Source: Histomonas meleagridis | Taxonomy: Eukaryota; Parabasalia; Tritrichomonadida; Dientamoebidae | Length of the DNA: 64,000 bases | Assembly (NCBI GenBank): GCA_020186115.1 | Contig: WSYJ01000001.1 | Span: forward strand, 248,001-312,000 | Reading direction: 5' to 3' | Shown: positions 23,203 to 58,679 of the stretch, in pieces | Layout of the letters: each line of letters opens with the position of its first letter | Position numbering within the stretch: position 1 is the first letter of the stretch | Translations under genes and position numbers: made by a program | The notes under the pieces: model-generated | What the model was told of the DNA's origin: nothing | What the model saw: the letters and a program-made list of their open reading frames with translations, nothing else | Databases searched by the model: none

Positions 23203-23317
23203 TTCTAAGCAGAAGTTCTCATGTAAAAAGTTTGTAAAGGTTTTTTGGAAAGAAATTTATTCGACGCGAATAGTGAATGCGATTCTGTAATAATTTGATA
23301 TTTTTTAATGATAAACA

Positions 23318-23712
23318 TTGATAAAATGCATGATTTCCAATATAGACCAAGGAAGATTAGTGTATGCTGAAAAAGAAAATATGTTAAAATGCGTGATTTA
23401 CAATGTTTAGACCAAGGAAGATTAGTGTTTGCTGAAGAAGAAAATATGTTAAAATGCGTGATTTACAATATATAGACCAAGGAAGATTAATATTTGCTGA
23501 AGAAGAAAATATGTTAAAATGCGTGATTTACAATGTATAGACCAAGGAAGATTAGTGTTTGCTGAAGAAGAAAATATGTTAAAATGCGTGATTTACAATA
23601 TATAGACCAAGGAAGATTAATATTTGCTGAAGAAGAAAATATGTTAAAATGCGTGATTTACAATGTATAGACCAAGGAAGATTAATATTTGTTGAAAAAA
23701 AATGATAAAATG
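23318..23712 (+). repeat. 65-bp minisatellite, six units, with alternating unit types
   Basis: AGACCAAGGAAGATTA occurs at 23344, 23409, 23474, 23539, 23604 and 23669, exactly 65 bp apart each time. Units alternate between two variants: CAATATATAGACC with ATTAATATTTG, and CAATGTATAGACC with ATTAGTGTTTG. Units three and five look identical, so the amplified unit is probably 130 bp. The array starts about 115 bp after the U1-70K stop. Flanking units are degraded at both ends (AAATGCATGATTTCC on the left, AAATGCATTATTTTC on the right). Confidence 0.93.
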
Positions 23713-24524
23713 CATTATTTTCAATTGAAGTTTCTAAATTCGGAATGTTAATATTTTCTAATGATGAAAATTAATAACTTCCAATTGTTATAACTGAATT
23801 TGTTTCAAGAATGATAATTATTTTCATTAAATACTATAATAATTTAAAATTTTGAACACTATATAAAAGCAGTTGATTCAAATGATGAAACTAATTTTGT
23901 TTGTTAATGCATACAATCATTTTTCCTTATGCTCCGATATTAATTTCATTTAAATTCCAAATTCAGTAACAATAATTGGTGGTTACTCATCATGTTATTG
24001 ACAATATCATTAACTGATTATTATTACAATTCCAGGATCACTTAATCAATAATAACTAATGTATTAGCTTAATGTTTTTTCTTTGGAAGTAATAAATTGT
24101 AAGATTATAACAATTGGAAGTCATACATTACATATAACTTCCTACCGAATATCACATTTCCAGATTTTGTTTCTTCAATTGAAACATATACATTTGCTTT
24201 TGTTCATCTTTAATTAATTTATTATTGAAAATCCAAAGGTTCATCTTTTGAAGAATGTAACCAATATCCTTAGCCAACACATACATTCACAAATGCACAA
24301 TCAAATGCATTATCGCAGACTTTAACATGTTCAAATATATTTACTCTTTTACATCATTCACGCAAACATTACCATTATTAGAACCGATTGCACATTCATA
24401 TTTGTCCGGAGCATTCATACATGAGCACAGTTATTCATTTTATTTATTATTCAGATTTACACAATTCTTAATCAAAATGAAAACGAGACAAACATATGGA
24501 TGTTATGTCGTCAGAAGTATTTCT
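23713..24524. other. intergenic region after the minisatellite
   Basis: This is 0.8 kb of AT-rich DNA between the minisatellite and the 3' end of TRIP13. An open frame at 24327-24572 overlaps the TRIP13 3' end and has no recognisable content. Nothing else is supported. Confidence 0.4.
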
Positions 24525-29161: not shown

Positions 29162-31692
29162 ATGAATGTTGTCTTCGAGTCACCATCAGCATTGCATACA
29201 TTTTCATCATCAATACTAAGCATATTTACAACTAAAAAGTATTTTTATGTTGCAACCGTTGATAATTGGCTCACTAGATATGAAATTCGATCACAAGTCA
29301 AAGCATCTTTAAATACCATGCAAAAGACCCAAATAGCCAAGAGAGGCTTAAAGAAAATAGCCGTTGTTTTTTGCAAAGAGTATTTAATCGTTGCTCTTGT
29401 TCAAAATCAATTATATATTTTACCAGAATCAAAGTTTCATGAACCATTCTACCCCACTAGCATTACCAATGTTGATGATTTCTGTGCGTGCGGAGATGAG
29501 AATTCACTTCGAGTAATATCTGGTAAAAACTTCATTCAATATTCTATCCAAAATTTCAAAGATTTTCTTCAAGTTTCTACACGTGAACTTAAGCAAAGTG
29601 TTTCCCAAATAGTTTCATCTAATGTTGAAATTCTTTTTAAAATGAAAGGAAAAAATCAACCACAAATTCTTGATATGAGAGAAGCCAAATTTTATGACAC
29701 AGGAAAAGAGTCTCCACGTTTCATTGGTGTTGCCACTGGGCCCACAGGATCCAAGACTAATCGACTTTCACAAAGACAAAAAGTATCACAATTTTATTTA
29801 GTATACAAAGATTATGTCGAATTCCTTCGAAATGGTCCATTTCAACGCCTTCAAGCCAAAAATAATGAAACCATTATTGATTTTAAGATAAATTATCCAT
29901 ATGCGATATTTATCTTTAAACATTTTATCGAGGTTAAAGCATTAGTCTGTGACAATTTAACATTAGAAATTCCGTTTGAACCACCTGCATCTAAATCAAT
30001 TTTATGTCCATTACCAAATCATTCATTTTTATATTCTAATGACAAGCAATTATTTTCAGTACAATTTGTATCACCTACAGCCCAAATCGATGAATTAACA
30101 AATCGAAAGTTATGGGAAAATGCCATTGCATTATCAGCGGCATTTCCCGACGATAAAACTTCTCAGTCAAAATTGAATGATTTATATTTGAGTTATGGCG
30201 AATCTTTATTAGTTCAAGGGAAATTCCACGAAGCGTTTGTTAACTTTAAGAACAGCAACAAGCCACCGTCATCGATTGTCAGTAACTTTTCGGTGTTGTT
30301 ACCATATGAAGTTACTGATGAGAAATCGAATTTAACCGAATGGAAAAAGAAGAGTAATACTAATTTCTCAAGTTCAATGCAACTTGACGAAAATGCTTTA
30401 GTTGAACTTAAGAACTACATTAAGGGCATCTTAGAGAAAGGTTGTGATGAAGAAACAACATTAATGATATTACAATCAGTCTTATTCAAGTGTTATGTAT
30501 ATGTCGAACCTAACTATGTCATTGAGTTCATTCGACAGAAGCCATCAATCTTCTTTGATTCCACCGAAAAGTTTTTACAACAAAAGAATTCCGATGAGAT
30601 TTTCTTGGAATTATGTCGAACGTATGGCCGAAATTCGATTGCCATTAAGTTCCTTAAAGACAAAGGCCTTGTTGAAGAACTTGTCAAATATGTTCGCATG
30701 TCACATGATTTCGAGAAACATGGGAAAGAAGTCTTTCGATTTGTCCATGACAAAGATCCTAAGTTATCACCGTTATTATTCTGTTCGAATTATTTAGATG
30801 AGTCACAAGTCTATAACATATTACGTTTTATCGAGACATCTGCCGGCTTAAAGAAATCTGAACAAAATATTATTAACATTAAGTTCTTAGACTTTTGTAT
30901 CTATGAACGAAAGATCAACAAGAACACATTAAATGTTAAATTGATCGAACTTTATATCGAAATATTATCGCCATCGATCTCACAACATTTAAGTGCATTA
31001 ACAATGAATTATATATCAATCGAACGAGAACCAGAGCCCATTAAATCATATCGAAAAGGGTTACAAAAGATACTTGAAACATGTGAACGATCAGATGCAG
31101 CAGCACAAGTTGATAAAATCAGTGATTGTTTTCTTGAAGAGAAACTCGTAGCAATGCGACGAAGCGGAATGATTAAGAATTGTCTTCAACTTGTTTCGCA
31201 AAGTATTGTCGACTTTAGTATTGCACTTGATTTTTGTGAGAAAGTTTATGAAGAAGAACAAAATCAAAAAGATGTTTTACACAATTATTTATGGAATTAA
31301 TATCACAACCGAATGTTAATGAAAATTCGAAAAAGAATATAATTCGACTTGTTAATACGAAGACGGAATTTTTAGATATTGTTTGTGTTATTCAACGAAT
31401 TCCATCGAATATTAAATTAGTTGAAATTAAAGAATTCTTGAAGAATGTCACCGTCGGAATGGTGAATCATAATCGCGAAAAAAAGATCGAAAATGCATTA
31501 ATCCAATCAACTTTATCATTTAAGAAACAACAATTAAAATATTTGAAAGGAGGCTCTGTGGAAATTACACACGACACTTTGTGCGCGACATGCAGAAAAC
31601 CAATTAAATTCTCTGTGTTTTACGTGCTGAATGATAACACAATAATACATTCTGCTTGTAAACCACCACAAACAGATTTATCAATGGATTAA
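29162..31692 (+). CDS. Vps39/Vam6-like HOPS subunit, interrupted by a one-base frameshift
   Basis: The first frame (29162-31300) gives an N-terminal CNH-like beta-propeller and then clathrin-type helical repeats: NRKLWENAIALSAAFPDDKT, YGESLLVQGKFHEAFVNFKN and SNFSVLLPYE match Vps39/TGFBRAP1. The second frame (to 31692) gives the C-terminal zinc motif CATCRKPIKFSVFYVLNDN plus IIHSAC, like the Vps39 CxxCxxxIGNSAF...VVHYFC. The two frames overlap at about 31274-31300. A run of four T (31274-31277) is five T in the duplicated fragment at 40328-40332, where the frame continues, so the break is a lost T or a sequencing error. The protein would tether late endosomes/lysosomes through Rab7 (HOPS) or act like Vps3 in CORVET. 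Its 3' end is the source of the inverted copy at 40064. Confidence 0.85.
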
Positions 31693-31699
31693 ATAAATT

Positions 31700-32137
31700 G
31701 TTGAAAATTATATTTTATTTGAAATAATGTGAAAATATAAATCATAGCGATATTTGCATGAGTTAGAAATTTGATGAAAATTATATTTTATTTGAAGAAA
31801 TGTGAAAATATAAATCATAGCGATATTTGCATGAGTTAGAAATTTGATGAAAATTATATTTTATTTGAAGAAATGTGAAAATATAAATCATAGCGACATT
31901 TGCATGAGTTTAAATTTGTTGAAAATTATATTTTATTTGAAATAATGTGAAAATATAAATCATAGCGACATTTGCATGAGTTTAAATTTGTTGAAAATTA
32001 TATTTTATTTGAAGTAATGTGAAAATATAAATCATAGCGACATTTGCATGAGTTTAAATTTGATGAAAATTATTTTATTTGAAGAAATGTGAAAATATAA
32101 ATCATAGCGACATTTGCATGAGTTAGAAATTTGATGA
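31700..32137 (+). repeat. 70-73 bp minisatellite, six units
   Basis: CATAGCGA occurs at 31743, 31816, 31889, 31961, 32033 and 32103, a period of 70-73 bp. Each unit reads roughly TTGATGAAAATTATATTTTA, then TTTGAAGAAATGTGAAAATA, then TAAATCATAGCGAYATTTGC and ATGAG. The array starts directly after the Vps39-like stop codon and ends about 170 bp before BspA gene A. The inverted copy at 39930-40065 has only two units. Confidence 0.93.
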
Positions 32138-32309
32138 GAAGGTGTGGATGAAGAACTGATATCTTTACAAAACTTAAACCAGGTTTTGTAACAAGTTACA
32201 TTAAATTTTCATGTGCCATTATTCACTTTTTGATAGTTTTCATTGTTTGACGTCAAATAATTTTCGAAAAGAGTATTGAAATTTGAATTAGTATACTTAA
32301 ACGGCAGAA

Positions 32310-34580
32310 ATGATCCCGAATGAAAGATCAACTATTCATGATATCGTTAATATATATGGAAATAATTATCTACGCGCATTTAATGGTACATTCTCCTTCT
32401 CAAAATTTTATATCAAAATCAAATTTTTATTGATAAATTATTTTTCCAAATTTGTTCATAATAAAAAAATCGATAGTATTAAATTAACTCCAATTTTTTT
32501 GATTGTTTTTTTCATATTTTCATATGAAACATTTGATTCAAATACAGGAACACTTACTATTTCTCATCCAAATGAATTTCCAACTGAAAAAGATGATAAC
32601 ATAAAAAATATTATTATTAATGGTAATGTTACTGTTATTCCAAATAATACATTTGAATTTTGGACGTCAATCACATCTGTTGAAATTGGAGATTCAGTTA
32701 TTACGATTGAAAGATATGCATTTTATTTTTGTACTTCATTGGAAACAATTTCTTTTGGAAACAATTTAAAAACAATAAATGATATTGCATTTTATAGATG
32801 TTCTTTAATAAGTGTTACATTTCCAGATTCTTTGATGTCAATTGGAAGTTCAGCATTTAGTTCAAATATTAAATTAACAACGATTATATTTGGGAATAAT
32901 ATTCAAGAAATAAATAATTTTGCATTTCAAAATTGTTATTCATTAGAAAATATTATAATTCCTAAATCAGTTATATATATTGGAAATGGTGTATTTAGTT
33001 TATGTTCTAAACTTCAATTTATTAATATTTCAGAAGAAAATGAATATTATTCTAATTATCATTATGATGGAATTATTTATAATCAAAATCATACGAATCT
33101 TAACTGTTATCCGAATGGTAATTTGAAAGAAACATTTTGCGTTCCTAAATATGTTAAAATCATTGAAACATATTCATTTTATTCATGTACAAATTTGAAA
33201 AACATTATTATTCCGGATACAGTTACAACCATTGGAAGTTATTCATTTTCTCAATGTTTATTTCCAAATATTTTGTTTCCAAATTCATTAACAACAATTG
33301 GAGATTATTCATTTTATTCATGTTTATTTACAAATATTTCATTTCCAGATTCTTTGATGTCAATTGGAAGTTCAGCATTTAGTTCAAATATTAAATTAAC
33401 AACGATTACATTTGGGAATAATATTCAAGAAATAAATGATTTTGCATTTCAAAATTGTCATTCATTAGAAAATATTATAATTCCTAAATCAGTTAGATAT
33501 ATTGGAATTGGTGCATTTAGTTTATGTTCTAAACTTCAATTTATTAATATTTCAGAAGAAAATGAATATTATTCTAATTATCATTATGATGGAATTATTT
33601 ATAATCAAAATCATACGAATCTTAACTGTTATCCGAATGGTAATTTGAAAGAAACATTTTGCGTTCCTAAATATGTTAAAATCATTGAAACATATTCATT
33701 TTATTCATGTACAAATTTGAAAAACATTATTATTCCGGATACAGTTACAACCATTGGAAGTTATTCATTTTCTCAATGTCAACAACTTCAATGTATTTAT
33801 TATTATGGATCTTCAGAACCATCAATTGGAAGCAATGCATTTTATAATATTTCAACTAAAGAAGTTATTGTAACTAATGTTTACAATGATACAAAATTTG
33901 GAAATTTAAACATATTACAAGGAAATGCGAGTGAATATTGTGAACCAATAATAACATTGACATTTTCACAAAGTAATACATTCACTAAATCAAATACATT
34001 TATAAAATCAAATACATTTACTGATTCTAATTCTGTTACAATATCGAATACATTTACATCTTCTTTCCAATCTGATATAAAATTTTCTTATTCAATAACA
34101 ATAACATTAATAAATTCATATTCAATCACAAGAACAATTACGAGACAAATTTCATATTTAAATACATATTCAATATCATTTGTTAATTCAGCATATATTT
34201 ATATTCATACGATTTTTATTTATTATAATTATACGATTATTCAATATTCAACAAATTTCATATTTTATTCTAATTTTTTTACGATATTTCAACATAAAGA
34301 AGAACAAACGAATTCGAATAATATTAATATCAATATTATTATTATTGTTGTTTGTGTTGTTATTATTATTATTATCATTATTATTATCATAATATCAATT
34401 GTTTTAATTAAACATAAACGAAAACAATTAAATATTAATGAAAATAGTAATGATGAAAACGAAAATGGACAAGAAGGGAATGTAATCAATAATTTTTCGA
34501 CAGGAATTAATATATCACATATTGACGAAGATCCATTTGCACAAGATTTCAAAGAAGATGAAAAATTTGTTAATATTTAA
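32310..34580 (+). CDS. BspA-like leucine-rich-repeat surface protein A
   Basis: This is a 756-residue predicted surface protein. An N-terminal hydrophobic stretch (LTPIFLIVFFIFSYETF, about residues 60-75) probably acts as signal or signal-anchor. LRR_5/BspA-type repeats follow with the pattern SLxxIxFPDSLxSIGSSAFSSN, to about residue 530. Within them a 522-bp segment is duplicated almost unchanged (32851 and 33373 start the same text). Next come SNTFTKSNTF-type repeats and Tyr/Phe/Asn-rich sequence. A transmembrane segment made almost only of Ile and Val (about residues 670-700) leads to KHKRK and a cytoplasmic tail ending DEDPFAQDFKEDEKFVNI. DPF-type motifs can bind the AP-2 adaptor, so endocytosis is possible. 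Such proteins are linked to host or bacterial adhesion in trichomonads. The start is shared with copy B, preceded by AAACGGCAGAA. Confidence 0.9.
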   Translation: MIPNERSTIHDIVNIYGNNYLRAFNGTFSFSKFYIKIKFLLINYFSKFVHNKKIDSIKLTPIFLIVFFIFSYETFDSNTGTLTISHPNEFPTEKDDNIKNIIINGNVTVIPNNTFEFWTSITSVEIGDSVITIERYAFYFCTSLETISFGNNLKTINDIAFYRCSLISVTFPDSLMSIGSSAFSSNIKLTTIIFGNNIQEINNFAFQNCYSLENIIIPKSVIYIGNGVFSLCSKLQFINISEENEYYSNYHYDGIIYNQNHTNLNCYPNGNLKETFCVPKYVKIIETYSFYSCTNLKNIIIPDTVTTIGSYSFSQCLFPNILFPNSLTTIGDYSFYSCLFTNISFPDSLMSIGSSAFSSNIKLTTITFGNNIQEINDFAFQNCHSLENIIIPKSVRYIGIGAFSLCSKLQFINISEENEYYSNYHYDGIIYNQNHTNLNCYPNGNLKETFCVPKYVKIIETYSFYSCTNLKNIIIPDTVTTIGSYSFSQCQQLQCIYYYGSSEPSIGSNAFYNISTKEVIVTNVYNDTKFGNLNILQGNASEYCEPIITLTFSQSNTFTKSNTFIKSNTFTDSNSVTISNTFTSSFQSDIKFSYSITITLINSYSITRTITRQISYLNTYSISFVNSAYIYIHTIFIYYNYTIIQYSTNFIFYSNFFTIFQHKEEQTNSNNININIIIIVVCVVIIIIIIIIIIISIVLIKHKRKQLNINENSNDENENGQEGNVINNFSTGINISHIDEDPFAQDFKEDEKFVNI

Positions 34581-34780
34581 AATTAGTCTATAAAAAAATT
34601 TTTATATAAAAATCAAATTCAAAATTATAATAATTCATAATTAAAATCAAACTAATAATTTATAAATTATACAAAAGTTTATTAGTTTCAATTATATATA
34701 TAAAATAACATCAAAGGCAAACTGTTAACAGTTTCAATTTGAAAAAAATTAATATGGAAAAAAAAATTGACACCGAAAGA

Positions 34781-34794
34781 GACCGTTTATTGTA
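34781..34794 (+). promoter_or_regulatory. CCGTT element upstream of the chromodomain gene
   Basis: GACCGTTTATTGTA lies 24 bp before the ATG at 34818 and is identical to 17847-17860 in the GDI upstream region. The CCGTT core recurs near many starts here, consistent with a Myb-type element overlapping the transcription start. Confidence 0.5.
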
Positions 34795-34817
34795 TAAATT
34801 AAACGTATACTATTGAA

Positions 34818-35486
34818 ATGGCTGAAACAACAGAAGAAGCATACGAAGTAGAATCTATTGTCGGCCATAGAAAACTACCTGGAGAACCTGAACAATACCT
34901 TGTGAGGTGGGTTGGGTACGAGAATCCAACATGGGAGCCAATTGGACTTCTTGATAATTGCAAAAATTTAATCAAAGAATTCTGGATTAAAAAGAAAGAA
35001 AAAGCAAAACAAGCTACTGAACAAGTGGCAACAATTAAGCCGCCAACACAACCTGATTTCAGAATGATTTTTAATCTTCCTATTGATACTTCAAAAGAGA
35101 ACATTCAAGAATTAGAATTAAACCCACTTGAACCAAAGCCACAACAAAGAGAGTTTGATGCTGATATTGAACCTACAAATTTCCATGATATGCAAGTTGA
35201 AAATGTTCTTTTAGTTAGAAGAGAGCCGAAAAAAAATGTTATGAGAAGTTGGTATAGCGGCGCTTGCGTTACTGAAGTGGACTCTGATGAAAAATTTGAG
35301 ACACCACCAAACAACTTTCGAATCACTTCCTTATGGAAAGATGAAACAGGCGAATGCTTTGGAACAATAACTAACCAAGACGAGGAAGAAGAGATTGTTG
35401 AATACGATACTTTAGCCTTCTTCTTTCCAGATTTATTAGCTGATTTCATTGAGCTTCATTACCTCATTGGCGAATCAATATCATAA
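34818..35486 (+). CDS. HP1-like protein with chromodomain and chromoshadow-like domain
   Basis: This is a 222-residue protein. The chromodomain (about residues 9-58) reads YEVESIVGHRK, then QYLVRWVGYENPTWEPI and NCKNLIKEF. It keeps the aromatic cage positions (Tyr at the start, Trp in VRWVGY, Trp/Glu in TWEP) used to bind methylated histone H3 lysine. A charged linker follows. The C-terminal part (about 150-220), with FRITSLWKDETGECFGTI and PDLLADFIELHYLI, resembles a chromoshadow domain, which dimerises HP1 proteins. Role: heterochromatin formation, inferred from the family. The gene lies between the two arms of the inverted duplication. The start codon is 24 bp after a CCGTT element. Confidence 0.85.
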   Translation: MAETTEEAYEVESIVGHRKLPGEPEQYLVRWVGYENPTWEPIGLLDNCKNLIKEFWIKKKEKAKQATEQVATIKPPTQPDFRMIFNLPIDTSKENIQELELNPLEPKPQQREFDADIEPTNFHDMQVENVLLVRREPKKNVMRSWYSGACVTEVDSDEKFETPPNNFRITSLWKDETGECFGTITNQDEEEEIVEYDTLAFFFPDLLADFIELHYLIGESIS

Positions 35487-35620
35487 GCTTTACATTTTAC
35501 GATAGCTTCATTATTAACTTTTTCATATGTTTTTGATCGTTTAGTACACAATTTTACGCTTATCGTTCTAGCCGATTTTTTTTTTGTTGTGTAAGTAAAT
35601 ATATACAAATTCTATTTTTA
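35487..35620. other. short convergent gap
   Basis: This gap separates the chromodomain gene and the transporter gene, which converge. It contains only T-rich sequence. Confidence 0.4.
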
Positions 35621-36697
35621 TTAAAACAATTCATTCCCTGTTCCTTCTTCTTCTTCAGAATCAAGAAATTGGTACTGTTCTATTTCCTCTGTTAGTGTTC
35701 TTTTTTCGACTGAAAATCCGGACAAATTAAATCCCAAGAAAGAGAAGACGACTCCAAGATAAGGAATCGATGAGTAACCAAATGTTAAAACTTCTTCTCT
35801 AAACACACTATGTCTCACAAAGAAGTTTAGCATTGTTGCGAATATAATAATTCTGGACAATTCAACAGCAGACGTATGCAGAATTAGCCAAAACTGCATA
35901 TAATGCCTTAAAGCGCTTGCTGCAACAAAAGCGGTAATCAGAATTATGGAGTTATGAGTTGGCGATATAAATATTTTTTCTTTTTTCGTGAACGATATGT
36001 ACGAATGATATAGCGATGTGATGACAATTCCCCAAACTCCGTTTTCAGCACAAAACGAAAGTGGCGAAAGACTAATTGTAGTTGATAAGGATTGTACAAT
36101 TGTCATACTAATGCAATTAAGTAGAATAGATAAAATCAGAAAGAGATAGCCAGCATGAACTGACTCGATTCCAAAAACAAAATATGGGGTAGAATAGATC
36201 GGTTCAAATGGTTCGCCAACAGGACTTGAAGAAATTGAAATATAACCAATGGTTTGGAAAATTAACCCGATAAATTCAATAAACGTAAGTTTTTGATTAA
36301 AAAAAATTAATGAAAATATGGACTGAAATATGGGAAATAAAAAAAAGAGAGTTTCCGATTTTTCAGGAGCAAGAGACATTGCAATTTTTAAGGATGCATC
36401 ACAACTAATATCAAGAAGTGTGAGAGTAGCTGAATTGATAAGTGATAAATGTTTTTTGTGACTTATCATATTTTTCTTTCTTCCAAACATACGTACAAAA
36501 AATGCAGCAAGAAGCATTGATACATATTGGAGAAATTGAGAAATTAATAGACGTGGTGGATTTAACCGAAGAAAAGTAAGGCGTGTTTCTATTATTTCTG
36601 TAGCAATGTATGAAAAAACAAATAACACGTGGCGTATTGTTATTGCTTTCTCGAAATTTTCGTTGTTTTTTGATGGTGGCCGATGTCTCGCCACCAT
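35621..36697 (-). CDS. drug/metabolite transporter (DMT) superfamily membrane protein, SLC35-like
   Basis: This is a 358-residue protein with about nine or ten hydrophobic segments and small loops, the layout of SLC35/EamA-type transporters. Recognisable features include a central pair of segments around SETLFFLFPIFQSIFSLIFFNQKLTFIEFIGLIFQTIGY, which matches the typical DMT half-repeat end (F-x-E-x-[IL]-x-x-x-Q-x-[IL]-G). The C-terminal tail is acidic and ends QYQFLDSEEEEGTGNELF, with YxxL/acidic sorting-like sequence. The substrate is unknown: sugar nucleotides or other metabolites are possible. The gene lies between the inverted arms. Confidence 0.75.
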   Translation of the reverse strand: MVARHRPPSKNNENFEKAITIRHVLFVFSYIATEIIETRLTFLRLNPPRLLISQFLQYVSMLLAAFFVRMFGRKKNMISHKKHLSLINSATLTLLDISCDASLKIAMSLAPEKSETLFFLFPIFQSIFSLIFFNQKLTFIEFIGLIFQTIGYISISSSPVGEPFEPIYSTPYFVFGIESVHAGYLFLILSILLNCISMTIVQSLSTTISLSPLSFCAENGVWGIVITSLYHSYISFTKKEKIFISPTHNSIILITAFVAASALRHYMQFWLILHTSAVELSRIIIFATMLNFFVRHSVFREEVLTFGYSSIPYLGVVFSFLGFNLSGFSVEKRTLTEEIEQYQFLDSEEEEGTGNELF

Positions 36698-36936
36698 ATT
36701 AGAATTGACTAAGTCTGTCAGATATTTATCTTTTTGTTTTGCAAAAGATTTTGTCCTAACAATATGATTATTGCTTATTTTTATGATTAAACGTAACTAT
36801 ATCTTACCAGAATAATTGTTTAAAGAATTAAAAAACAAAATTTAAATCCGTAAATGTTCGTTTATTCATCACTTAAAAAACTTGAATAAATTGTTATCAA
36901 TAACATTTTCGGTTTCAAATATTATCAAATTTTCGA

Positions 36937-37056
36937 TCACCTCCGTCGAATGAATAAAAATGCTGAAAAAGTTTTTGTTACATCTTCTTGTTGGACATCG
37001 GCATTTTCAAGAATTTTTTGGAAACTATTCAGTTGTTTTTGCCTATGTTCCAGCAT
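36937..37056 (-). CDS. possible short coding segment (39 codons), uncertain
   Basis: On the minus strand, ATG at 37056 opens 39 codons with a charged helix-like composition (QMLEHRQKQLNSFQKIL, QQEDVTKTFSAFLF) ending in RRR and a TGA. The frame continues upstream without ATG into a pyrimidine tract and TTTTTCAG, which looks like a generic 3' splice site. The conserved trichomonad 3' splice motif (ACTAACACACAG) is not present. It may be a short exon, a small gene or chance. I do not recognise the protein. Confidence 0.25.
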   Translation of the reverse strand: MLEHRQKQLNSFQKILENADVQQEDVTKTFSAFLFIRRR

Positions 37057-37129
37057 CTGTATCAAACGTTTCAAATGAATCCCTGAAAAAGACAATAAGA
37101 AAAGAAAGATACTAATGTAATTTGATTAA

Positions 37130-37440
37130 TATTTTTGTTATGATAGAACATGGACATATTATTGTTGCATAATAATTTTTCTGATTTCACTTCCACTATT
37201 TTTCTTTCTTGATCATATTGAAACAACTGTTATATTTCTTCTAGTATGCACAGCTATTTCTGGCGCAGGCGTTTTAGTTTTTGGTATCTTGAGCCCAGTA
37301 TATATTCGTATAGATTCTCTTGTTGATAAAGCAATCAGTCACCAAGTGTCATATTCATCATATGAAAGCGATATTAATGGAACAATTAATGAGCTTCCAT
37401 ATCTTGAAATTGGTTTTACAATGAGTTATAAAATACTTCG
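37130..37440 (+). pseudogene. truncated membrane-protein fragment cut by the inverted block
   Basis: One frame is open from 37130 to the boundary at 37441. It encodes two hydrophobic segments (CCIIIFLISLPLFFL and VIFLLVCTAISGAGVLVFGI) followed by SPVYIRIDSLVDKAISHQVS and a polar stretch. There is no ATG at the expected N-terminus. The layout, a membrane segment followed by a short D/K-rich helix, slightly recalls the N-terminus of CD36/LIMP-2 family proteins, but this is weak. The frame runs into the 16-bp direct repeat that borders the inverted block. It is probably a gene remnant broken before or by the insertion. Confidence 0.4.
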
Positions 37441-37444
37441 AATT

Positions 37445-39757
37445 TTAAATATTAACAAATTTTTCATCTTCTTTGAAATCTTGTGCAAATGGATCTTCAT
37501 CAATATGTGAAATATTAATTCCTGTCGAAAAATTATTGATTACATTATTCCCTTCTTGTCCATTTTCGTTTTCATCATTAATATTTTCATTAATATTTAA
37601 TTGTTTTCGTTTATGTTTAATTAAAACAATTGATATTATAATAATAATAATAATGATAATGATAACAACACAAACAACAATAATAATGATATTGATATTA
37701 ATATTATTCGAATTCGAATTCGTTTGTTCTTCTTTATGTTGAAATATCGTGAAAAAATTAGAATAAAATATGAAATTTGTTGAATATTGAATAATCGTAT
37801 AATTATAATAAATAAGAATCGTATTAATATAAATATATGCTGAATTAACAAATGATATTGAATATGTATTTAAATATGAAATTTGTCTCGTAATTGTTCT
37901 TGTGATTGAATATGAATTTATTAATGTTATTGTTATTGAATAAGAAAATTTTATATCAGATTGGAAAGAAGATGTAAATGTATTCGATATTGTAACATAA
38001 TTAGAATCAGTAAATGGATTTGACTTCGTATATGTATTTGATTTTGTAAATGAATTTGATTTGGTAAATGTATTTGATTTAGTGAATGTATTACTTTGTG
38101 AAAATGTCAATGTTATTATTGGTTCACAGCCTTCACTCGCATTTCCTTGTAATATGTTTAAATCACCAAATTTTGTATCATTGTAAACATTAGTTACAAT
38201 AACATCTTTAGTTGAAATATTATAAAATGCATTGCTTCCAATTGATGGTTCTGAAGATCCATAATAATAAATACATTGAAGTTGTTGACATTGAGAAAAT
38301 GAATAACTTCCAATAGTTGTAACTGTATCCGGAATAATAATGTTTTTCAAATTTGTACATGAATAAAATGAATATGTTTCAATGATTTCAACATATTTAG
38401 GAACGCAAAATGTTTCATTCAAATTACCATTCGGATAACAGTTAAGATTCGTATAATTTTGATTATAAATAATTCCATCTTTATAATAATTAGAATAATA
38501 TTCATTTTCTTCTGAAATATTAATAAATTGAAGTTTAGAACATAAACTAAATGCACCAATTCCAATATATCTAACTGATTTAGGAATTGTAATATTTTCT
38601 AATGAATAACAATTTTGAAATGCAAAATCATTTATTATTGATATATTATTCCCAAATGTAATTGTTGTTAATTTAATATTTGAACTAAATGCTGAACTTC
38701 CAATTGACATCAAAGAATCTGGAAATGAAATATTTGTAAATAAACATGAATAAAATGAATAATCTCCAATTGTTGTTAATGAATTTGGAAACAAAATATT
38801 TGTAAATAAACATTGATAAAATGAATAACTTCCAATAGTTGTAACTGTATCCGGAATAATAATGTTTTTCAAATTTGTACATGAATAAAATGAATATGTT
38901 TCAATGATTTTAACATATTTAGGAACGCAAAATGTTTCATTCAAATTACCATTCGGATAACAGTTAAGATTCGTATAATTTTGATTATAAATAATTCCAT
39001 CTTTATAATAATTAGAATAATATTCATTTTCTTCTGAAATATTAATAAATTGAAGTTTAGAACATAAACTAAATGCACCAATTCCAATATATGTAACTGA
39101 TTTCGGAATTATAATGTTTTCTAATGAAATACAATTTTGAAATGCAAAATCATTTATTACTGAAATATTATTCCCAAATATAATCGTTGTTAAATTATTA
39201 TTTGAACTAAATGCAGAACCTCCAATTGATATTAATGAATCTGGAAATGTAATACTAATTAAAGAACATTGTCGAAATGCAATATTTTCAATCGTTTTTA
39301 AATTATTACCAAAAGAAACTGTTTCCAATGAAGTACAAGAATAAAATGCATATCTTTCAATCGTAATAACTGAATCTCCAATATCAACAGATGTGATTGA
39401 CGTCCAAAATTCAAATGTATTACTTGGAATAACAGTAACATTGCCATTAATAATAATATTTTTTATGTTATCATCTTTTTCAGTTGGAAATTCATTTGAA
39501 TTAGAAATAGTAAGTGTTCCAGTATTTGGATCAAATGTTTCATATGAAAATATGAAAAAAATAATAATAAATATTGGAATTATTTTGATATTATTGACTT
39601 TTTTATTATGAACAAATTTGGAAAAATAATTTATCAATAAAAATTTGATTTTGATATAAAATTTTGAGAAGGAAAATGTACTGAACCATGTGCATAATGA
39701 ATTATATCCATATATATTTACGATATCATGAATAGTTGCTCTTTCATTTGGGAGCAT
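37445..39757 (-). CDS. BspA-like leucine-rich-repeat surface protein B (inverted copy of A)
   Basis: With the start at 39757, matching that of copy A (M[IL]PNERxTIHDIVNIYG), the protein has 770 residues. It has the same order as A: hydrophobic N-terminal segment (IIPIFIIIFFIFSYETF), BspA/LRR_5 repeats with the long internal duplication, TFTKSNTF repeats (one or two units more than A), an Ile-rich membrane segment, KHKRK and the tail DEDPFAQDFKEDEKFVNI. A few substitutions (for example NYYKDGIIYNQNYTN for NYHYDGIIYNQNHTN) match genes C and D better than A, suggesting gene conversion within the family. The longer frame to 39787 is less likely, since A lacks it. Confidence 0.9.
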   Translation of the reverse strand: MLPNERATIHDIVNIYGYNSLCTWFSTFSFSKFYIKIKFLLINYFSKFVHNKKVNNIKIIPIFIIIFFIFSYETFDPNTGTLTISNSNEFPTEKDDNIKNIIINGNVTVIPSNTFEFWTSITSVDIGDSVITIERYAFYSCTSLETVSFGNNLKTIENIAFRQCSLISITFPDSLISIGGSAFSSNNNLTTIIFGNNISVINDFAFQNCISLENIIIPKSVTYIGIGAFSLCSKLQFINISEENEYYSNYYKDGIIYNQNYTNLNCYPNGNLNETFCVPKYVKIIETYSFYSCTNLKNIIIPDTVTTIGSYSFYQCLFTNILFPNSLTTIGDYSFYSCLFTNISFPDSLMSIGSSAFSSNIKLTTITFGNNISIINDFAFQNCYSLENITIPKSVRYIGIGAFSLCSKLQFINISEENEYYSNYYKDGIIYNQNYTNLNCYPNGNLNETFCVPKYVEIIETYSFYSCTNLKNIIIPDTVTTIGSYSFSQCQQLQCIYYYGSSEPSIGSNAFYNISTKDVIVTNVYNDTKFGDLNILQGNASEGCEPIITLTFSQSNTFTKSNTFTKSNSFTKSNTYTKSNPFTDSNYVTISNTFTSSFQSDIKFSYSITITLINSYSITRTITRQISYLNTYSISFVNSAYIYINTILIYYNYTIIQYSTNFIFYSNFFTIFQHKEEQTNSNSNNININIIIIVVCVVIIIIIIIIIISIVLIKHKRKQLNINENINDENENGQEGNNVINNFSTGINISHIDEDPFAQDFKEDEKFVNI

Positions 39758-39929
39758 TTCTGGTTTCTGCCGTTTGATTATACTCATTCAAATTTCAATA
39801 CTATATTCAAAACCAACAAAAAGTGAATGATGTCAATCACCTCACAGAGTATCCAATATAACCTTTTTACGAAACCTGGTTTAAGATATCGCAAAGATAT
39901 CAGTTTTTCATCCACACCTTCTCATCAAA

Positions 39930-40065
39930 TTTAAACTCATGCAAATATCGCTATGATTTATATTTTCACATTACTTCAAATAAAATATAATTTTCATCAA
40001 ATTTCTAACTCATACAAATATCGCTATGATTTATATTTTCACATTATTTCAAATAAAATATAATT
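39930..40065 (-). repeat. two-unit copy of the 72-bp minisatellite
   Basis: TCGCTATG, the reverse complement of CATAGCGA, occurs at 39948 and 40021, 73 bp apart. It is the inverted-block copy of the array at 31700-32137, reduced to two units. On the minus strand it follows directly after the truncated Vps39 fragment. Confidence 0.9.
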
Positions 40066-40570
40066 ATTTTAATTGTTGTTTCTTAAATGATAAAGTTGAT
40101 TGGATTAATGCATTTTCGATCTTTTTTTCGCGATTATGATTCACCATTCCGACGGTGACATTCTTTAAGAATTCTTTAATTTCAACTAATTTAATATTCG
40201 ATGGAATTCGTTGAATAACACAAACAATATCTAAAAATTCCGTCTTCGTATTAACAAGTCGAATTATATTCTTTTTCGAATTTTCATTAACATTCGGTTG
40301 TGATATTAATTCCATAAATAATTGTGTAAAAACATCTTTTTGATTTTGTTCTTCTTCATAAACTTTCTCACAAAAATCAAGTGCAATACTAAAGTCGACA
40401 ATACTTTGCGAAACAAGTTGAAGACAATTCTTAATCATTCCGCTTCGTCGCATTGCTACGAGTTTCTCTTCAAGAAAACAATCACTGATTTTATCAACTT
40501 GTGCTGCTGCATCTGATCGTTCACATGTTTCAAGTATCTTTTGTAACAATTTTTTGACATATATTTAATG
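40064..40570 (-). pseudogene. truncated copy of the Vps39-like 3' coding region
   Basis: From 40549 to 40064 the minus strand reads ILETCERSDAAAQVDKISDC and onward to STLSFKKQQLK, the same as 31060-31545 of the Vps39-like gene. The N-terminal four-fifths and the zinc motif at the C-terminus are absent; the frame runs into the minisatellite. It has five T at 40328-40332 where the parent has four, so this fragment keeps the ancestral frame across the parent's break. Nearby sequence back to 40570 matches the parent from 31039, more diverged. It is unlikely to make a functional protein. Confidence 0.9.
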
Positions 40571-40710
40571 TTATTTTATATATATAATTGAAACTAATAA
40601 ACTTTTATATAATTTATAAATTATTAGTTTGATTTTAGTTATGAATTATTATAATTTTGATTTTGATTTTCATATAAAAATTTTTTTATAGACTAATTTT
40701 AAATGTTAAC

Positions 40711-40861: not shown

Positions 40862-42514
40862 TCACTCCTGAATATTCGGCACGTATCCGTGGCTTCTGCA
40901 AAACTCGTCGACTTGCCTCGGCACCTCAGCCAGCACCTCAGCTGCCAATCCGATGTTTCCATTATTTTGGAACTTAACGAATGGTACGAACTGCACAATG
41001 TCCCTCTTCATTCTTACTCCTGTCGAAGACACCAGCGGCACCTCGTCAGCGTCCAATTGGTCCATTGCGCTGAAGTTCGCGTTTCCGACGCCGACGATGA
41101 TGATACTCAACGGCGCATCTGTTGCTTCGACTATAGCGTTAATCGTTTCTTGCATATCATTGATGATACCGTCAGTGAGTATCATCAGAATTGTATATGT
41201 TTTACTTTCATTCCATGATTGGATAGCGACACCTGTCGCCGCTTTTATCACTGGCGAGAACAATGTTGGACCAGACAATTGTACGCATGTGAGTGACTGT
41301 CGATATGCTGAGAGGATTCCATTCAAGCCACTGACGTTTGGATTATTTGGATCAAATGTTAATGGGAAACAATGATTAATGATCCCATTAAGTTTACCAC
41401 CAAACCCATAGACTGGGAATTGTTGATCACTATCATATGGACATAATACACTTCCAACACTATATATACATTGTTCATATTGATTCATAATTCCATCATT
41501 GCGTAAGAAATGTAATGACATTGGATCACGTGGATCTCTGTTGGAGGCAGTGTAGTCAATGGCAGTGATCATATTCAACTGAATGCCACTGCGCATGTAA
41601 TCCCAAAATGTCGGTTTTCTGACAAGTTGTAAACTATTGAATCTGATTTGTCCACTTTTCACCTTTTGGCGCTTGTTGTCGGTGAATGAGATCTCAATGG
41701 GAGTACGCTGTGACTCCATTAGCTGAGAGATGGAACGTTCAACAGAGCCAATAAATTCATCCGGGCGGTTACGAACAAAATTCATTATTGATATGGTTAT
41801 AGGCATTTCTGTATCGCCATTACAAATGGTTTGTAATGGGATTTCAAAGTTCTTGAAGGTACACGTTTGACTTCGAAACACAACTTCGGATCTGAAAATT
41901 GGTAATTTTTTGCCACTTTCACTGGGCTTGGAAATAAGAACATAGGGATTGTCTCGGGAAAAGAAGTGGAGCTTACGAAGATCCATGCAGGATATGGAGC
42001 CTGTAACAATTGAGCCTGATTGTGTGGCTTGTTCGGTTGTGATGATGAGTGTTCCTCGTTTGTTTGTGGCTGTGTTGTGTTTGAGCTCAAGACGAAGTTG
42101 GGATGTACCATTAGATACTAAGGTTTGAACATCAGTATCAGCATAACCTACAAAATCATGTTTTGATAAATCTGCATTTTCTGAGTCGCAATCATATACA
42201 CAAAAACGGAGTGGCTGGTGTGTTTCGAAAACATACATAGCTTGGAAGAATTTAACCCAGTTTGGATTTGGATCATCCCATATAACTTCAGTACGTGCAA
42301 CTTCGCAATATTTACCATTGACAGGTACAAAAAGTACACACATGGGATCACTCGGAGATCCAAGATCAAGTTGAATTACGTTTTCGCAAGAAACATGAAT
42401 GTTTAAAATTGGATCTTTTGAAGCATTGTCTAACATAGTTGAGTTACTAACATTTGCTTCCGCTGAGTTAATTGTAGCATTTTGGTGAATGTGAGTTCCA
42501 TAAGCAATGCTCAT
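40862..42514 (-). CDS. copine (two C2 domains plus von Willebrand A-like domain)
   Basis: This is a 550-residue protein with the full copine layout. C2A (about residues 35-150) includes LDLGSPSDPMCVLFVP and NPNWVKFFQAMYVFETHQPLRFCVYDCDS. C2B (about 165-295) includes SCMDLRKLHFFSRDNPYVLISK and TCTFKNFEIPL. The A domain begins at about 315 with NMITAIDYTASNRDPRDPMSLHF, where DxTxS is the metal-binding MIDAS motif as in other copines, and continues with PVYGFGGKLNG and TDGIINDM. Copines bind phospholipid in response to calcium and recruit partners to membranes. The start is 110 bp from the start of the divergent BspA gene C. A CCGTC/GACGG-type site lies about 25 bp upstream. Confidence 0.95.
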   Translation of the reverse strand: MSIAYGTHIHQNATINSAEANVSNSTMLDNASKDPILNIHVSCENVIQLDLGSPSDPMCVLFVPVNGKYCEVARTEVIWDDPNPNWVKFFQAMYVFETHQPLRFCVYDCDSENADLSKHDFVGYADTDVQTLVSNGTSQLRLELKHNTATNKRGTLIITTEQATQSGSIVTGSISCMDLRKLHFFSRDNPYVLISKPSESGKKLPIFRSEVVFRSQTCTFKNFEIPLQTICNGDTEMPITISIMNFVRNRPDEFIGSVERSISQLMESQRTPIEISFTDNKRQKVKSGQIRFNSLQLVRKPTFWDYMRSGIQLNMITAIDYTASNRDPRDPMSLHFLRNDGIMNQYEQCIYSVGSVLCPYDSDQQFPVYGFGGKLNGIINHCFPLTFDPNNPNVSGLNGILSAYRQSLTCVQLSGPTLFSPVIKAATGVAIQSWNESKTYTILMILTDGIINDMQETINAIVEATDAPLSIIIVGVGNANFSAMDQLDADEVPLVSSTGVRMKRDIVQFVPFVKFQNNGNIGLAAEVLAEVPRQVDEFCRSHGYVPNIQE

Positions 42515-42624: not shown

Positions 42625-44922
42625 ATGAAAATGGAAACGAGAGGAAGCAAAGGCACTCATTTTATTGGAAATGACATTATAATATCAATGTCCATTTTGC
42701 CTTTTTCGTTTTTGTTTCCTTTATTTGCATTGTTTTATTCCAAATTTAAATTTTTATTGATAAATTATTTTTTCAAATTTGTTCATAATAAAAAAGTTAA
42801 TAATATTAAAATAATTCCAATTTTTATTATTATTTTTTTCATATTTTCATATGAAATATTTGATCCAAATACTGGAACACTTACTATTTCTGACCCAAAT
42901 GAATTTCCAACTGAAAAAGATGAAAAAATAACAAAAATTATTATTAATGGTAATGTTACTGTTATTCCAAGTAATACATTTGTATTTTGGACGTCAATCA
43001 CATCTGTTGATATTGGAGATTCAGTTATTACGATTGAAAGATATGCATTTTATTCTTGTACTTCATTGAAAACAATTTCTTTTGGTAATAAATTAAAAAC
43101 AATTGAAAATATTGCATTTCAAAGATGTTCTTTAATAAGTGTTACATTTCCATATTCATTAATATCAATTGGAAGTTCAGCATTTAGTTCAAATATTAAA
43201 TTAACAACAATTACATTTGGGAATAATATATCAATAATAAATGATTTTGCATTTCAAAATTGTTATTCATTAGAAAATATTACAATTCCTAAATCAGTTA
43301 GATATATTGGAATTGGTGCATTTAGTTTATGTTCTAAACTTCAATTTATTAATATTTCAGAAGAAAATGAATATTATTCTAATTATTATAAAGATGGAAT
43401 TATTTATAATCAAAATTATACGAATCTTAACTGTTATCCGAATGGTAATTTGAATGAAACATTTTGCGTTCCTAAATATGTTGAAATCATTGAAACATAT
43501 TCATTTTATTCATGTACAAATTTGAAAAACATTATTATTCCGGATACAGTTACAACTATTGGAAGTTATTCATTTTCTCAATGTTTATTCACAAATATTT
43601 CATTTCCAAATTCATTAACAACAATTGGAGATTATGCATTTTATTCATGTTTCTTTACAAATATTACATTTCCAGATTCATTAATATCAATTGGAGGTTC
43701 TGCATTTAGTTCAAATATTAAATTAACAACAATTACATTTGGGAATAATATATCAATAATAAATGATTTTGCATTTCAAAGTTGTATTTCATTAGAAAAT
43801 ATTACAATTCCTAAATCAGTTAGATATATTGGAATTGGTGTATTTAGTTTATGTTCTAAACTTCAATTTATTAATATTTCAGAAGAAAATGAATATTATA
43901 CTAATTATTATAAAGATGGAATTATTTATAATCAAAATTATACGAATCTTAACTGTTATCCGAATGGTAATTTGAATGAAACATTTTGCGTTCCTAAATA
44001 TGTTGAAATCATTGAAACATATTCATTTTATTCATGTACAAATTTGAAAAACATTATTATTCCAGATACAGTTACAACTATTGGAAGTTATTCATTTTCT
44101 CAATGTCAACAACTTCAATGTATTTATTATTATGGATCCTCAGAACCATCAATTGGAAGCAATGCATTTTATAATATTTCAACTAAAGATGTTATTGTAA
44201 CTAATGTTTACAATGATACAAAATTTGGTAATTTAAACATATTACAAGGAAATGCGAGTGAAGGCTGTGAATCAATAATAACATTGACATTTTCACAAAG
44301 TAATAAGTATACAAATTCTCATTTATTCACTCAATCAAACACATTTATAAATTCGCATTTATTCACTAAGTCATTCACATTTACACCATCTTTCCAGTCT
44401 GATTTAACATTTTCTTATTCAATTACAGTAACTATAATCAATTCACATTCAATCACAAGAACAATTTCACAACAAATATCATATTTAAATACATATTCAA
44501 TTTCATTTTTTAATTCAACATATGCATTTGTTAATACTATTCTTATTAATTATGATCAAACATTTATTCAATATTCAACAAATTTCATGTTTTATTCAGA
44601 TATCATTACAATATTAAGTTTAAATAATCAACACGAGAATTCTAATTCGTTAGATACGAATATTATTGTTGTTATTGTTGTTGTTTGTATTATTGTTATT
44701 ATTGTTATTATTGTTATTATTTTAATTGTTTTAATTATTTATCGTAAGCATAACCAAAAACGAAATAATAATGAAAATAATAACAATGATAACAATAATA
44801 ACAATAAAAATCAAAATGAAGACACAACAAATAATTTTTCAGCAGGAATTAATATTGCAAATGTTGAAGATGATCCATTTGCTAACGATTTTAAAGAAGA
44901 TGAAACATTCATTAACATATAA
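42625..44922 (+). CDS. BspA-like leucine-rich-repeat surface protein C
   Basis: This is a 765-residue protein of the same family as A and B. Homology with the other copies starts at about 42747 (AAATTTTTATTGATAAATTA); the first 40 residues are specific, so the start could also be ATG 42688 (MSILPFSFLFPLFALFYSKF), which would itself make a signal sequence. BspA repeats, with the long internal duplication (NNISIINDFAF, YIGIGVFSLCSKLQF), run to about residue 550. The Ser/Thr/Asn/Phe stretch is shorter and different (NKYTNSHLFTQSNTF). The membrane segment is Ile/Val-rich, followed by YRKHNQKR and a poly-Asn tail that still ends EDDPFANDFKEDETFINI. The conserved end, despite a variable middle of the tail, suggests it has a function. 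Confidence 0.88.
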   Translation: MKMETRGSKGTHFIGNDIIISMSILPFSFLFPLFALFYSKFKFLLINYFFKFVHNKKVNNIKIIPIFIIIFFIFSYEIFDPNTGTLTISDPNEFPTEKDEKITKIIINGNVTVIPSNTFVFWTSITSVDIGDSVITIERYAFYSCTSLKTISFGNKLKTIENIAFQRCSLISVTFPYSLISIGSSAFSSNIKLTTITFGNNISIINDFAFQNCYSLENITIPKSVRYIGIGAFSLCSKLQFINISEENEYYSNYYKDGIIYNQNYTNLNCYPNGNLNETFCVPKYVEIIETYSFYSCTNLKNIIIPDTVTTIGSYSFSQCLFTNISFPNSLTTIGDYAFYSCFFTNITFPDSLISIGGSAFSSNIKLTTITFGNNISIINDFAFQSCISLENITIPKSVRYIGIGVFSLCSKLQFINISEENEYYTNYYKDGIIYNQNYTNLNCYPNGNLNETFCVPKYVEIIETYSFYSCTNLKNIIIPDTVTTIGSYSFSQCQQLQCIYYYGSSEPSIGSNAFYNISTKDVIVTNVYNDTKFGNLNILQGNASEGCESIITLTFSQSNKYTNSHLFTQSNTFINSHLFTKSFTFTPSFQSDLTFSYSITVTIINSHSITRTISQQISYLNTYSISFFNSTYAFVNTILINYDQTFIQYSTNFMFYSDIITILSLNNQHENSNSLDTNIIVVIVVVCIIVIIVIIVIILIVLIIYRKHNQKRNNNENNNNDNNNNNKNQNEDTTNNFSAGINIANVEDDPFANDFKEDETFINI

Positions 44923-46022: not shown

Positions 46023-46562
46023 ATGTTCTTAAAATTATTGATGCAATCTCCCTTTCTACATTTGCACATTCCTTCATTTGCTGTACAGAAGCCAATATTA
46101 AATAACAATATTTTTCAAAAGATTTATATAAGCCCACCAAAAGCGCAACGAACACATAATTTGGCCGACTATTCATTTGAGCTCATTACCCAATATTTGT
46201 TTTTATCTAAAAGTAGTTCATTCAATCACATTTTGATATCAAATTTTACCAAGTACATTATATTTTTGGCTTCAAACTGGCTCTTGTCCAATAGCTTTCT
46301 GACAAGTTTTTCCTTTTGTTTTTTAATTTCTTTAAACTCATCTTTCATACGTGAACAAAATAAATTCCATTGCACAAATGCAAATCTTTCTAATGCTACT
46401 ATGACTTTTTTTAACAGTTTTTTTGAAAATTATGAAAATGCTTTTTTAATCACAATTTTCACCTCTTTATTTTCATTTTTGTTTTCTTTGTTCAGTTGCA
46501 AAATTAAATTTTTATTGATAAATTATTTTTTCAAATTTGTTCAAAATAAAAAAATCAACAAT

Positions 46563-48675
46563 ATGAAATTAATTCCAATTTTTTTGATTGTTTTTTTCAT
46601 ATTTTCATATGAAACATTTGATCCAAATACTGGAACACTTACTATTTCTAATTCAAATGAATTTCCACCTAAAAAAGATGATAACATAACAAAAATTATT
46701 ATTAATGATAATGTTACTGTTATTCCAAGTAATACATTTGAATTTTGGACGTCAATCACATCTGTTGATATTGGAGATTCAGTTATTACGATTGAAAGAT
46801 ATGCATTTTATTCTTGTACTTCATTGAAAACAATTTCTTTTGGTAATAAATTAAAAACAATTGAAAATATTGCATTTCAAAGATGTTCTTTAATAAGTGT
46901 TACATTTCCATATTCATTAATATCAATTGGAAGTTCAGCATTTAGTTCAAATATTAAATTAACAACAATTACATTTGGGAATAATATATCAATAATAAAT
47001 GATTTTGCATTTCAAAATTGTTATTCATTAGAAAATATTATAATTCCGAAATCAGTTATATATATTGGAAATGGTGTATTTAGTTTATGCTCTAAACTTC
47101 AATTTATTAATATTTCAGAAGAAAATGAATATTATTCTAATTATTATAAAGATGGAATTATTTATAATCAAAATTATACGAATCTTAACTGTTATCCGAA
47201 TGGTAATTTGAATGAAACATTTTGCGTTCCTAAATATGTTGAAATCATTGAAACATATTCATTTTATTCATGTACAAATTTGAAAAACATTATTATTCCG
47301 GATACAGTTACAACTATTGGAAGTTATTCATTTTCTCAATGTTTATTTACAAATATTTTGTTTCCAAATTCATTAACAACAATTGGAGATTATGCATTTT
47401 ATTCATGTTTCTTTACAAATATTTCATTTCCATATTCATTAATATCAATTGGAGTTTCTGCATTTAGTTCAAATAATAATTTAATAACGATTACATTTGG
47501 GAATAATATATCAATAATAAATGATTTTGCATTTCAAAATTGTTATTCATTAGAAAACATTATAATTCCGAAATCAGTTAGATATATTGGAATTGGTGTA
47601 TTTAGTTTATGCTCTAAACTTCAATTTATTAATATTTCAGAAGAAAATGAATATTATTCTAATTATTATAAAGATGGAATTATTTATAATCAAAATTATA
47701 CGAATCTTAACTGTTATCCGAATGGTAATTTGAATGAAACATTTTGCGTTCCTAAATATGTTGAAATCATTGAAACATATTCATTTTATTCATGTACAAA
47801 TTTGAAAAAACATTATTATTCCGGATACAGTTACAACTATTGGAAGTTATTCATTTTCTCAATGTCAACAACTTCAATGTATTTATTATTATGGATCTTC
47901 AGAACCATCAATTGGAAGCAATGCATTTTATAATATTTCAACTAAAGAAGTTATTGTAACTAATGTTTACAATGATACAAAATTTGGTAATTTAAACATA
48001 TTACAAGGAAATTCGAGTGAAGGCTGTGAACCAATAATAACATTGACATTTTCACAAAGTAATACATTCACTAAATCAAATTCATTTATTCAATCAAATA
48101 CATATACAAAGTCAAATACATTTTCTGATTCTAATTCTTTTACAATATCAAATACATTTACCAAATCAAATGCATTTACTCTTTCGAACACATTTTCATC
48201 TTCTTTTCCACTTGGTGCTTCTCTTTCACATTATTTAGTTCTCACACATTTTATTTCACACACGCAGACGCTGTCTATACAAAACACATTCATATCCAAT
48301 TCCATTTCACTTTACTTTAGTAATTTCACGTACACGTACACAAACACTGCAATTGTTTATTTCAATTATACAATTGTTCATTACTCCACATTCTATAGTT
48401 TTTATTCCGATTTTTACACATTCTTTTATTCCCAAACACCAAATTCCGACAGCCTTTCGTCAGAAGTATTGATTGGAATCATCTGCGGCGCCGTTGTAAT
48501 TGTTCTGATCATTATTGGAATTGTTATCTTTCTTGTTCGCACAAGCAAGAAGCGCCATTTGACATCTTCGGACTCGAGGCGCTTTAATCCCATAAATAAC
48601 AATAGTAAACAAAAGGAAGTCCCAAATAAGGAAATACAAAAACTTGCGCTTGAAGATGATGACCAATGGATTTGA
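46563..48675 (+). CDS. BspA-like surface protein D, frameshifted, with a different C-terminal end
   Basis: The open frame reaches back to 46023, but the ATG at 46563 gives a clean signal peptide (MKLIPIFLIVFFIFSYETF); genes A-C have ATT at this codon. BspA repeats nearly identical to gene C follow. At 47805-47810 there are six A where every other copy, including this gene's own first repeat at 47269, has five. This shifts the frame; reading resumes in the next frame (NIIIPDTVTTIGSYSF) and continues to 48675. After about 48190 the sequence no longer matches A-C: the membrane segment is VLIGIICGAVVIVLIIIGIVIFLV and the tail ends KLALEDDDQWI, without DPF. D is therefore a mosaic. The shift may be a real mutation or a homopolymer error. 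Confidence 0.8.
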
Positions 48676-49128
48676 TTCATTAGTTATATTAAATCAAAAA
48701 ATACGTTTTATTTCAATAAAAAATTTATTTCTAAATAATTTTATTAAATATATGTAATTAGAAAATCATTTGATAACATGCAAAGCATTGATGTTCTTCT
48801 TAATAATTAATTGTATGTAAGCAATTATTAAAATCTTTGCTTTAATTTATTTTCAATTTATTTAATAATTGCTAAACCTTTATAGATTTTCCTTTAATAT
48901 TATTTAGTAAATAATTTTACTCAATATCCATTGACATTAATATGAAACACCAAGAAATTTAAACACCACAGAAGGATTGCATCAAACCCGTTTACAACGT
49001 TCTTCCAAGAAAATTATCCGGTTATAACAGCAAATAAAAAAACCATTTTATGACAAATGAATTTGAATCGTTTACACTCTATCGTCAATAAATCATTCAA
49101 AAGGCTTTTTTGGTTGACCAAAATTCAA
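48676..49128. other. intergenic region with CCGGTTATAAC near the DnaJ gene
   Basis: AT-rich. CCGTTTACAAC (about 48989), CCGGTTATAAC (49018-49028) and TCGTTTACAC lie within 140 bp upstream of the second DnaJ gene. Nothing else is supported. Confidence 0.4.
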
Positions 49129-54945: not shown

Positions 54946-54955
54946 AAAAGATATT

Positions 54956-58653: not shown

Positions 58654-58679
58654 AAATAATTTTGTGAACTCAAAAATAA

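Follow-up and report, generated by a model that had tools for sequence, protein, structure and literature searches.

In the genome assembly of Histomonas meleagridis (43.3 Mb in 121 contigs), a second copy of a BspA-like gene lies close to the first; it is rotated and inverted, and it includes a 0.5-kb fragment from a VPS39-like gene. We studied this locus in a window of 64,000 nucleotides (contig C1, positions 248001-312000), to which all positions below refer unless a contig is named. The rotated order of the copy is real, and its mechanism is ambiguous, because an ordinary local rearrangement explains the order as well as a DNA circle would. The reading that we prefer, with a confidence just short of even, is that a unit made of the VPS39-like fragment, repeats, promoter, BspA-like gene and 3′ flank was copied by a local chromosomal rearrangement, for which a free circle is not required.

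A rotated and inverted copy of a BspA-like gene

The window was compared with itself by BLAST, and the right copy was then aligned to the rotated left block. Three inverted pieces were obtained: 31996-34584 against 40065-37441 (91.7%), 31039-31544 against 40570-40062 (98.0%) and 34568-34715 against 40711-40564 (95.9%). Read on the minus strand from 40710 to 37441, the right copy corresponds to 34569-34711, followed by 31039-31544 (or 31060-31544, see below) and then by 31706-34584, with all of its pieces in one orientation. A preliminary description of this DNA had recognized 37441-40710 as a permuted inverted copy of the left block, and the rotated alignment, run as a check, placed the pieces in the order claimed, including the jump. 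The rotation itself rests on a piece of 143 bp. The sequence 34569-34711 was found at two places in the 43.3 Mb, both at this locus (the second copy has E = 5.6e-62), and the same two places were the only ones found for 31039-31694. Because the two segments joined by the rotation, termed F and V below, are each found at these places alone, the structure is not a product of chance. In the 43.3-Mb assembly, the junction pieces were not found a third time, either near the two other BspA-like genes of the window, C and D, or elsewhere, and the idea that surface-protein genes are spread by such circles is therefore not supported.

The left block begins within the C-terminal part of a VPS39-like gene (29162-31692, plus strand), which comprises the open reading frames 29162-31300 and 31291-31692. 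The second frame contains a zf-Vps39_C domain (PF10367, E = 1.5e-6), and no Pfam family was found in the first. The frame changes near 31275 (31270-31300), where the left copy is one T shorter in a run of T than the right fragment (40330), which is either a recent frame change or a base error. The public model P0241 (26363-31300) ends at this point; one source names it farnesyl pyrophosphate synthetase, a doubtful name given the zf-Vps39_C domain just 3′ of the model. Segment V (31060-31544, plus strand), delimited by alignment with 40547-40063, belongs here to the longer gene, and the left block is therefore the likely donor. Between V and the promoter, a 72-bp unit is repeated in tandem about six times (31695-32140, plus strand), as identified by self-BLAST and from the sequence. 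The repeats are followed on the same strand by a promoter/5′ island (32164-32395) overlapping the start of the next reading frame, by the BspA-like (LRR_5) gene L (32310-34580; PF13306, E = 3.2e-80), by a 16-bp sequence at the 3′ end of this gene (34569-34584) and by segment F, its 3′ flank (34585-34711). Self-BLAST also revealed tandem repeats elsewhere in the window, at 23295-23771 and at 55868-56295 (144-bp period).

The left and right blocks, mutually inverted, flank a spacer (34712-37440, plus strand) and are thus 2.7 kb apart on one contig. The spacer holds a chromodomain gene (34818-35486) and a minus-strand reading frame (35621-36697) without a Pfam family. Near its end, 20 bp from the right block, lies a feature absent from the preliminary description, a 270-bp piece from the interior of a multicopy gene (37151-37420, plus strand), whose closest copy (C55:689757-690026, 97%) differs at 8 of 270 sites, all within the first 121 bp; the 376-residue reading frame at that place has no Pfam match above the cut-off. 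The right copy lies on the minus strand. Its left end is the 16-mer (37441-37456), the end of the BspA-like gene R (37445-39787; PF13306, E = 2e-79). Two copies of the 72-bp repeat (39919-40065), against about six on the left, are joined at AAAAT to the copied VPS39-like fragment V′ (40063-40547), and the equivalent of 31545-31705 (about 160 bp) is missing. The copied gene end and 3′ flank, that is, the 16-mer with F′ (40568-40710), differs from the donor at 5 of 143 sites. Between F′ and V′ is a stretch of 22 bp (40548-40569), which is either filler or a strongly diverged form of 31039-31059. A copine gene (40862-42514, minus strand; PF07002, E = 2.4e-69) with relatives in H. meleagridis flanks the acceptor site. 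An extension of the homology of the right copy past 37441 into the 3′ flank of gene C, where self-BLAST reaches 37413/44951, was rejected, as the alignment is weak and AT-rich by eye.

Junctions and the histories that yield the observed order

The rotated order needs a junction between 34711 and about 31060 and an opening at 34569-34584. As previously described, the 16-bp sequence of the opening recurs as direct repeats at both block ends, at 37441-37456 (16/16) and at 40695-40710 (15/16), so that a single opening point serves both ends and its scar is a 16-bp duplication. With either base allowed at the variable site, the 16-mer was found at four sites in the 43.3 Mb, three at the locus and one elsewhere; the pattern read backwards, which served as a control, was found at two. 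Since one site in the whole assembly was found outside the locus, it is unlikely that a target as near as 2.7 kb to the donor already carried the sequence, and a doubling of the 16 bp during the event is more probable. At the other junction, the join of 34711 to about 31060 was confirmed, but the start at 31039 and the CAT microhomology of the preliminary description are insecure. The 22 bp at 40569-40548 match 31041-31059 weakly, and an equally good match is given by 4.3% of 5000 stretches of 19 bases drawn at random from the window. Secure homology of V therefore starts at 31060, and the donor ends are joined inside the copy with 22 bp that are unmatched or diverged. No notable homology was found between the two ends of the unit (500 bp each way; best matches 15-22 bp, E = 0.12) or across the acceptor site (500 bp per side compared).

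Five candidate histories were run symbolically with segment labels: a circle recombining with a 16-mer target; a circle of which one lap and a further 16 bp are copied; a tandem duplication followed by a staggered-break inversion and a flip; an inverted copy with an insert of 16-mer and F at the junction; and a plain inverted duplication. The plain duplication does not yield the observed order, in line with the preliminary description, and it is the only one of the five that the rotation excludes.

The tandem duplication with inversion and flip yields the exact order observed. In this local rearrangement, about 3.65 kb would first have been duplicated in tandem, so that F was joined to V (34711 to about 31060) through a short filler and with slight homology at most. 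An inversion would have followed, with a staggered break at 34569-34584, whose 16 bp would be doubled by fill-in, and a second break between 37440 and 40711. Finally, the spacer between the now inverted BspA-like genes would have been flipped by homologous recombination. Replicative template switching within the locus, as a single event, could stand in for the first two steps. The right copy would afterwards have lost 160 bp, and the number of tandem repeats would have changed. We favor such a local origin because the copies, inverted and 2.7 kb apart, resemble the leftovers of local inversions, because a random insertion less than 10 kb from the donor has odds of roughly 5e-4, because the scarcity of the 16-mer points to its doubling in the event, and because the ends of the unit lack notable homology. 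On the other hand, three steps are needed where a circle needs two, the flip of the spacer is an assumption, and a circle predicts an identical final sequence. Multi-step histories of duplication and inversion have been held unlikely, since exact breakpoints must coincide (PMC7188851; PMC7450558); in the local route, one staggered break together with homologous recombination would supply this exactness.

A less probable, though possible, history is that 31039-34711 was closed into a circle by end joining, opened at 34569-34584 and re-inserted between 37440 and 40711, either through a crossover at a 16-mer in the target or through the copying of one lap and a further 16 bp into a break. Both forms yield the exact order, and to this extent the circle proposed earlier is supported; the same order, however, is reached by two chromosomal routes. 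The single crossover with a 16-bp target, the form put forward in the preliminary description, is weak: besides the single 16-mer outside the locus, the acceptor sides show no notable homology over 500 bp each, and the odds of a pre-existing target are roughly 1e-4. In favor of a circle, the locus fits the change from A-B/C-D to B-A/D-C with short junction scars described in PMC7450558, which also mentions micro-duplications at the opening of a cattle circle; the 16 bp seen here are comparable. Moreover, the points of entry and exit lie within 16 bp of each other, for which independent template switches have odds of roughly 0.9%; a circle needs no extra assumption for this coincidence, but a staggered break accounts for it too. 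Against a circle, the rotated part is only 143 bp long, a free circle would be improbable as the source of a copy only 2.7 kb from its donor in the absence of a local bias, and copies on the same chromosome may stem from nested local events (PMC7188851). The flipped parts reported by Takahashi and Innan all exceed 500 bp; as that figure is their detection limit and shorter parts are expected (PMC7188851), we do not count the figure against a circle.

It is unlikely, but compatible with the same symbolic order, that 31060-34584 was copied in inverted form and that a 143-bp piece of 16-mer and F was added at the far junction by template switching in several steps or by local fragment joining, the piece beside the break at 34584 having served as insert. 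The 22 bp where F′ meets V′ resemble filler. The C55-like fragment of 270 bp lies 20 bp from the other block end, as compound repair would leave it, and its divergence (8/270) is close to that of F (4/127). However, the overlap of entry and exit requires one break to supply both, and the fragment may be unrelated, because partial matches are also present at 53004-53804 (C1:367073-367870, 91%) and 53905-54224 (C120:3155277-3155596, 94%). These emerged from a search of 15.8 kb at 48162-64000 (39 of 308 candidates scored), in which 54323-54835 also matched more than 20 places at 74-85%; such partial matches are thus not confined to the block junction.

Although fold-back chimeras produce inverted copies and the V copies are nearly identical, an assembly error or chimeric read is highly improbable, as F (4/127), promoters (39/207) and gene tails (11/557) differ and the right block is hence no re-read of the left. 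Also against such an error, the assembly was built from Nanopore and Illumina data, and its authors report no within-contig rearrangements between two strains of one lineage (PMC8529796). A lariat-type duplication as described in PMC7188851 was rejected because of the common orientation of all pieces of the copy.

Uneven divergence and possible gene conversion

The divergence between the two copies is uneven along the block. V differs by 2 substitutions in 484 sites and one indel, one of the substitutions being the last column, at the junction. F differs at 4 of 127 sites, the 72-bp repeats that could be compared at 3 of 133 (plus one indel), the gene tail at 11 of 557 (plus three indels), 32396-32470 at 1 of 75 and 32140-32163 at 1 of 24. 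By Fisher tests, F, repeats and tail are similarly diverged (pairwise p 0.5-0.74), as a single event predicts. V is less diverged than F (p = 0.019) and the tail (p = 0.026); the likeness of its copies could be exaggerated by short-read polishing. The promoter island of about 230 bp (32164-32395 against 39672-39895) differs at 39 of 207 sites (19%) with five indels, far more than V, F, repeats or tail (p 1.5e-5 to 1.1e-19), and it adjoins segments that are about 0.4-4% apart. When the two promoters were used as queries, the genome yielded no third relative. Because V is lower and the promoter island far higher, a single age does not fit all segments without later conversion, which weighs against the local rearrangement we favor. 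We also considered that the right copy is an old paralog in which only V and F are recent, and rejected this because the repeats, 32396-32470 and the tail are little diverged as well. Since C and D, in contrast, are far from L and R in the tail, most of the right copy belongs to the same event.

All four BspA-like genes (L, R, C and D) contain LRR_5 (PF13306, E = 3.6e-67 or better), with LRR parts at 32473-33972, 37974-39600, 42733-44354 and 46499-48161. In blocks of 100 columns across the LRR part, the six pairs are 88-100% alike, with the exception of one L-R block at 82%, so that L and R diverge by up to 18% per 100 bp. C and D are 93-100% alike in the blocks 32573-33872 and 47-58% alike in the tail. 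The tail blocks of L and R are 96-99% alike, and those of C and D are 47-85% alike to them. Among 63 informative sites that split the genes two against two, the pairing of L with R is supported by 50, that of L with D by 10 and that of L with C by 3. This pattern, in which the four genes are alike in the LRR part and apart in tails and promoters, suggests gene conversion limited to the LRR part. Following the local rearrangement, the LRR part would accordingly have been homogenized with genes C and D, and one promoter tract would have been replaced or would have evolved fast.

The LRR_5 domain and a hydrophobic stretch near the C terminus of the translation, judged by eye, are features shared with the trichomonad BspA-like (LRR_5) surface family, and no unusual feature was seen in the BspA-like proteins of the locus. 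For H. meleagridis, 94 proteins with a BspA motif have been reported (PMC8529796). When the gene R protein was used as a query (best 120 of 7992 candidates scored), the few organism names given were bacterial, and neither the protein of the window itself nor any other trichomonad protein was named among the matches listed.

Comparison with known duplications and significance

Human circular-DNA-mediated segmental duplications (cSDPs) show a rotated order and short scars, and a closing join with microhomology or a short indel is described as an additional, non-specific feature of circles (PMC7450558). The cattle color-sidedness circle is reported to have micro-duplications at its opening (Durkin 2012, as cited in PMC7450558). 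The locus resembles these cases in its rotation, its one closing junction and one opening, its short scars and the lack of extended closing homology; it differs in that the copy is inverted and 2.7 kb from the donor, with a rotated part of 143 bp and an opening duplication of 16 bp. Takahashi and Innan describe three human cases and advise caution on the two with both copies on one chromosome (PMC7188851). Following them, we took a copy far from its donor as our own criterion, and here the copy lies on the same contig, inverted, at 2.7 kb. Because this short distance leaves local histories possible, we do not assign the locus to the circle class, although it may still have worked alike.

In Drosophila, inversions through staggered breaks are known to duplicate single-copy DNA in inverted orientation (PMC3355041). 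With these the locus shares a spacer between inverted copies and a short duplication at the break, but its rotation needs a prior tandem duplication or a junction insert. FoSTeS/MMBIR gives complex local rearrangements, which the locus resembles in being local and inverted, with a jump back and a junction filler; unlike them, it has its entry and exit points no more than 16 bp apart, a coincidence that independent switches are not expected to produce. FoSTeS/MMBIR is also mentioned in PMC7450558.

Could extrachromosomal circles contribute to the growth of gene families in these organisms? Trichomonad genomes contain expanded families of surface proteins, in which the origin of single copies is rarely visible at the base level. 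In the open-access literature that was searched, we found no study of DNA circles in parabasalids. That a free 3.7-kb circle with a BspA-like gene was formed by end joining and copied back beside its source is, in our opinion, rather doubtful, and from a single case the frequency of such events is not yet inferable. The interest of the locus lies in how copies arose and not in the proteins: it retains the scars of a duplication, namely the closing join, the opening point and the filler, alongside a pattern suggestive of subsequent gene conversion. If a circle was indeed involved, and if such events recur, extrachromosomal circles would be a route for the expansion of surface gene families in parabasalids.
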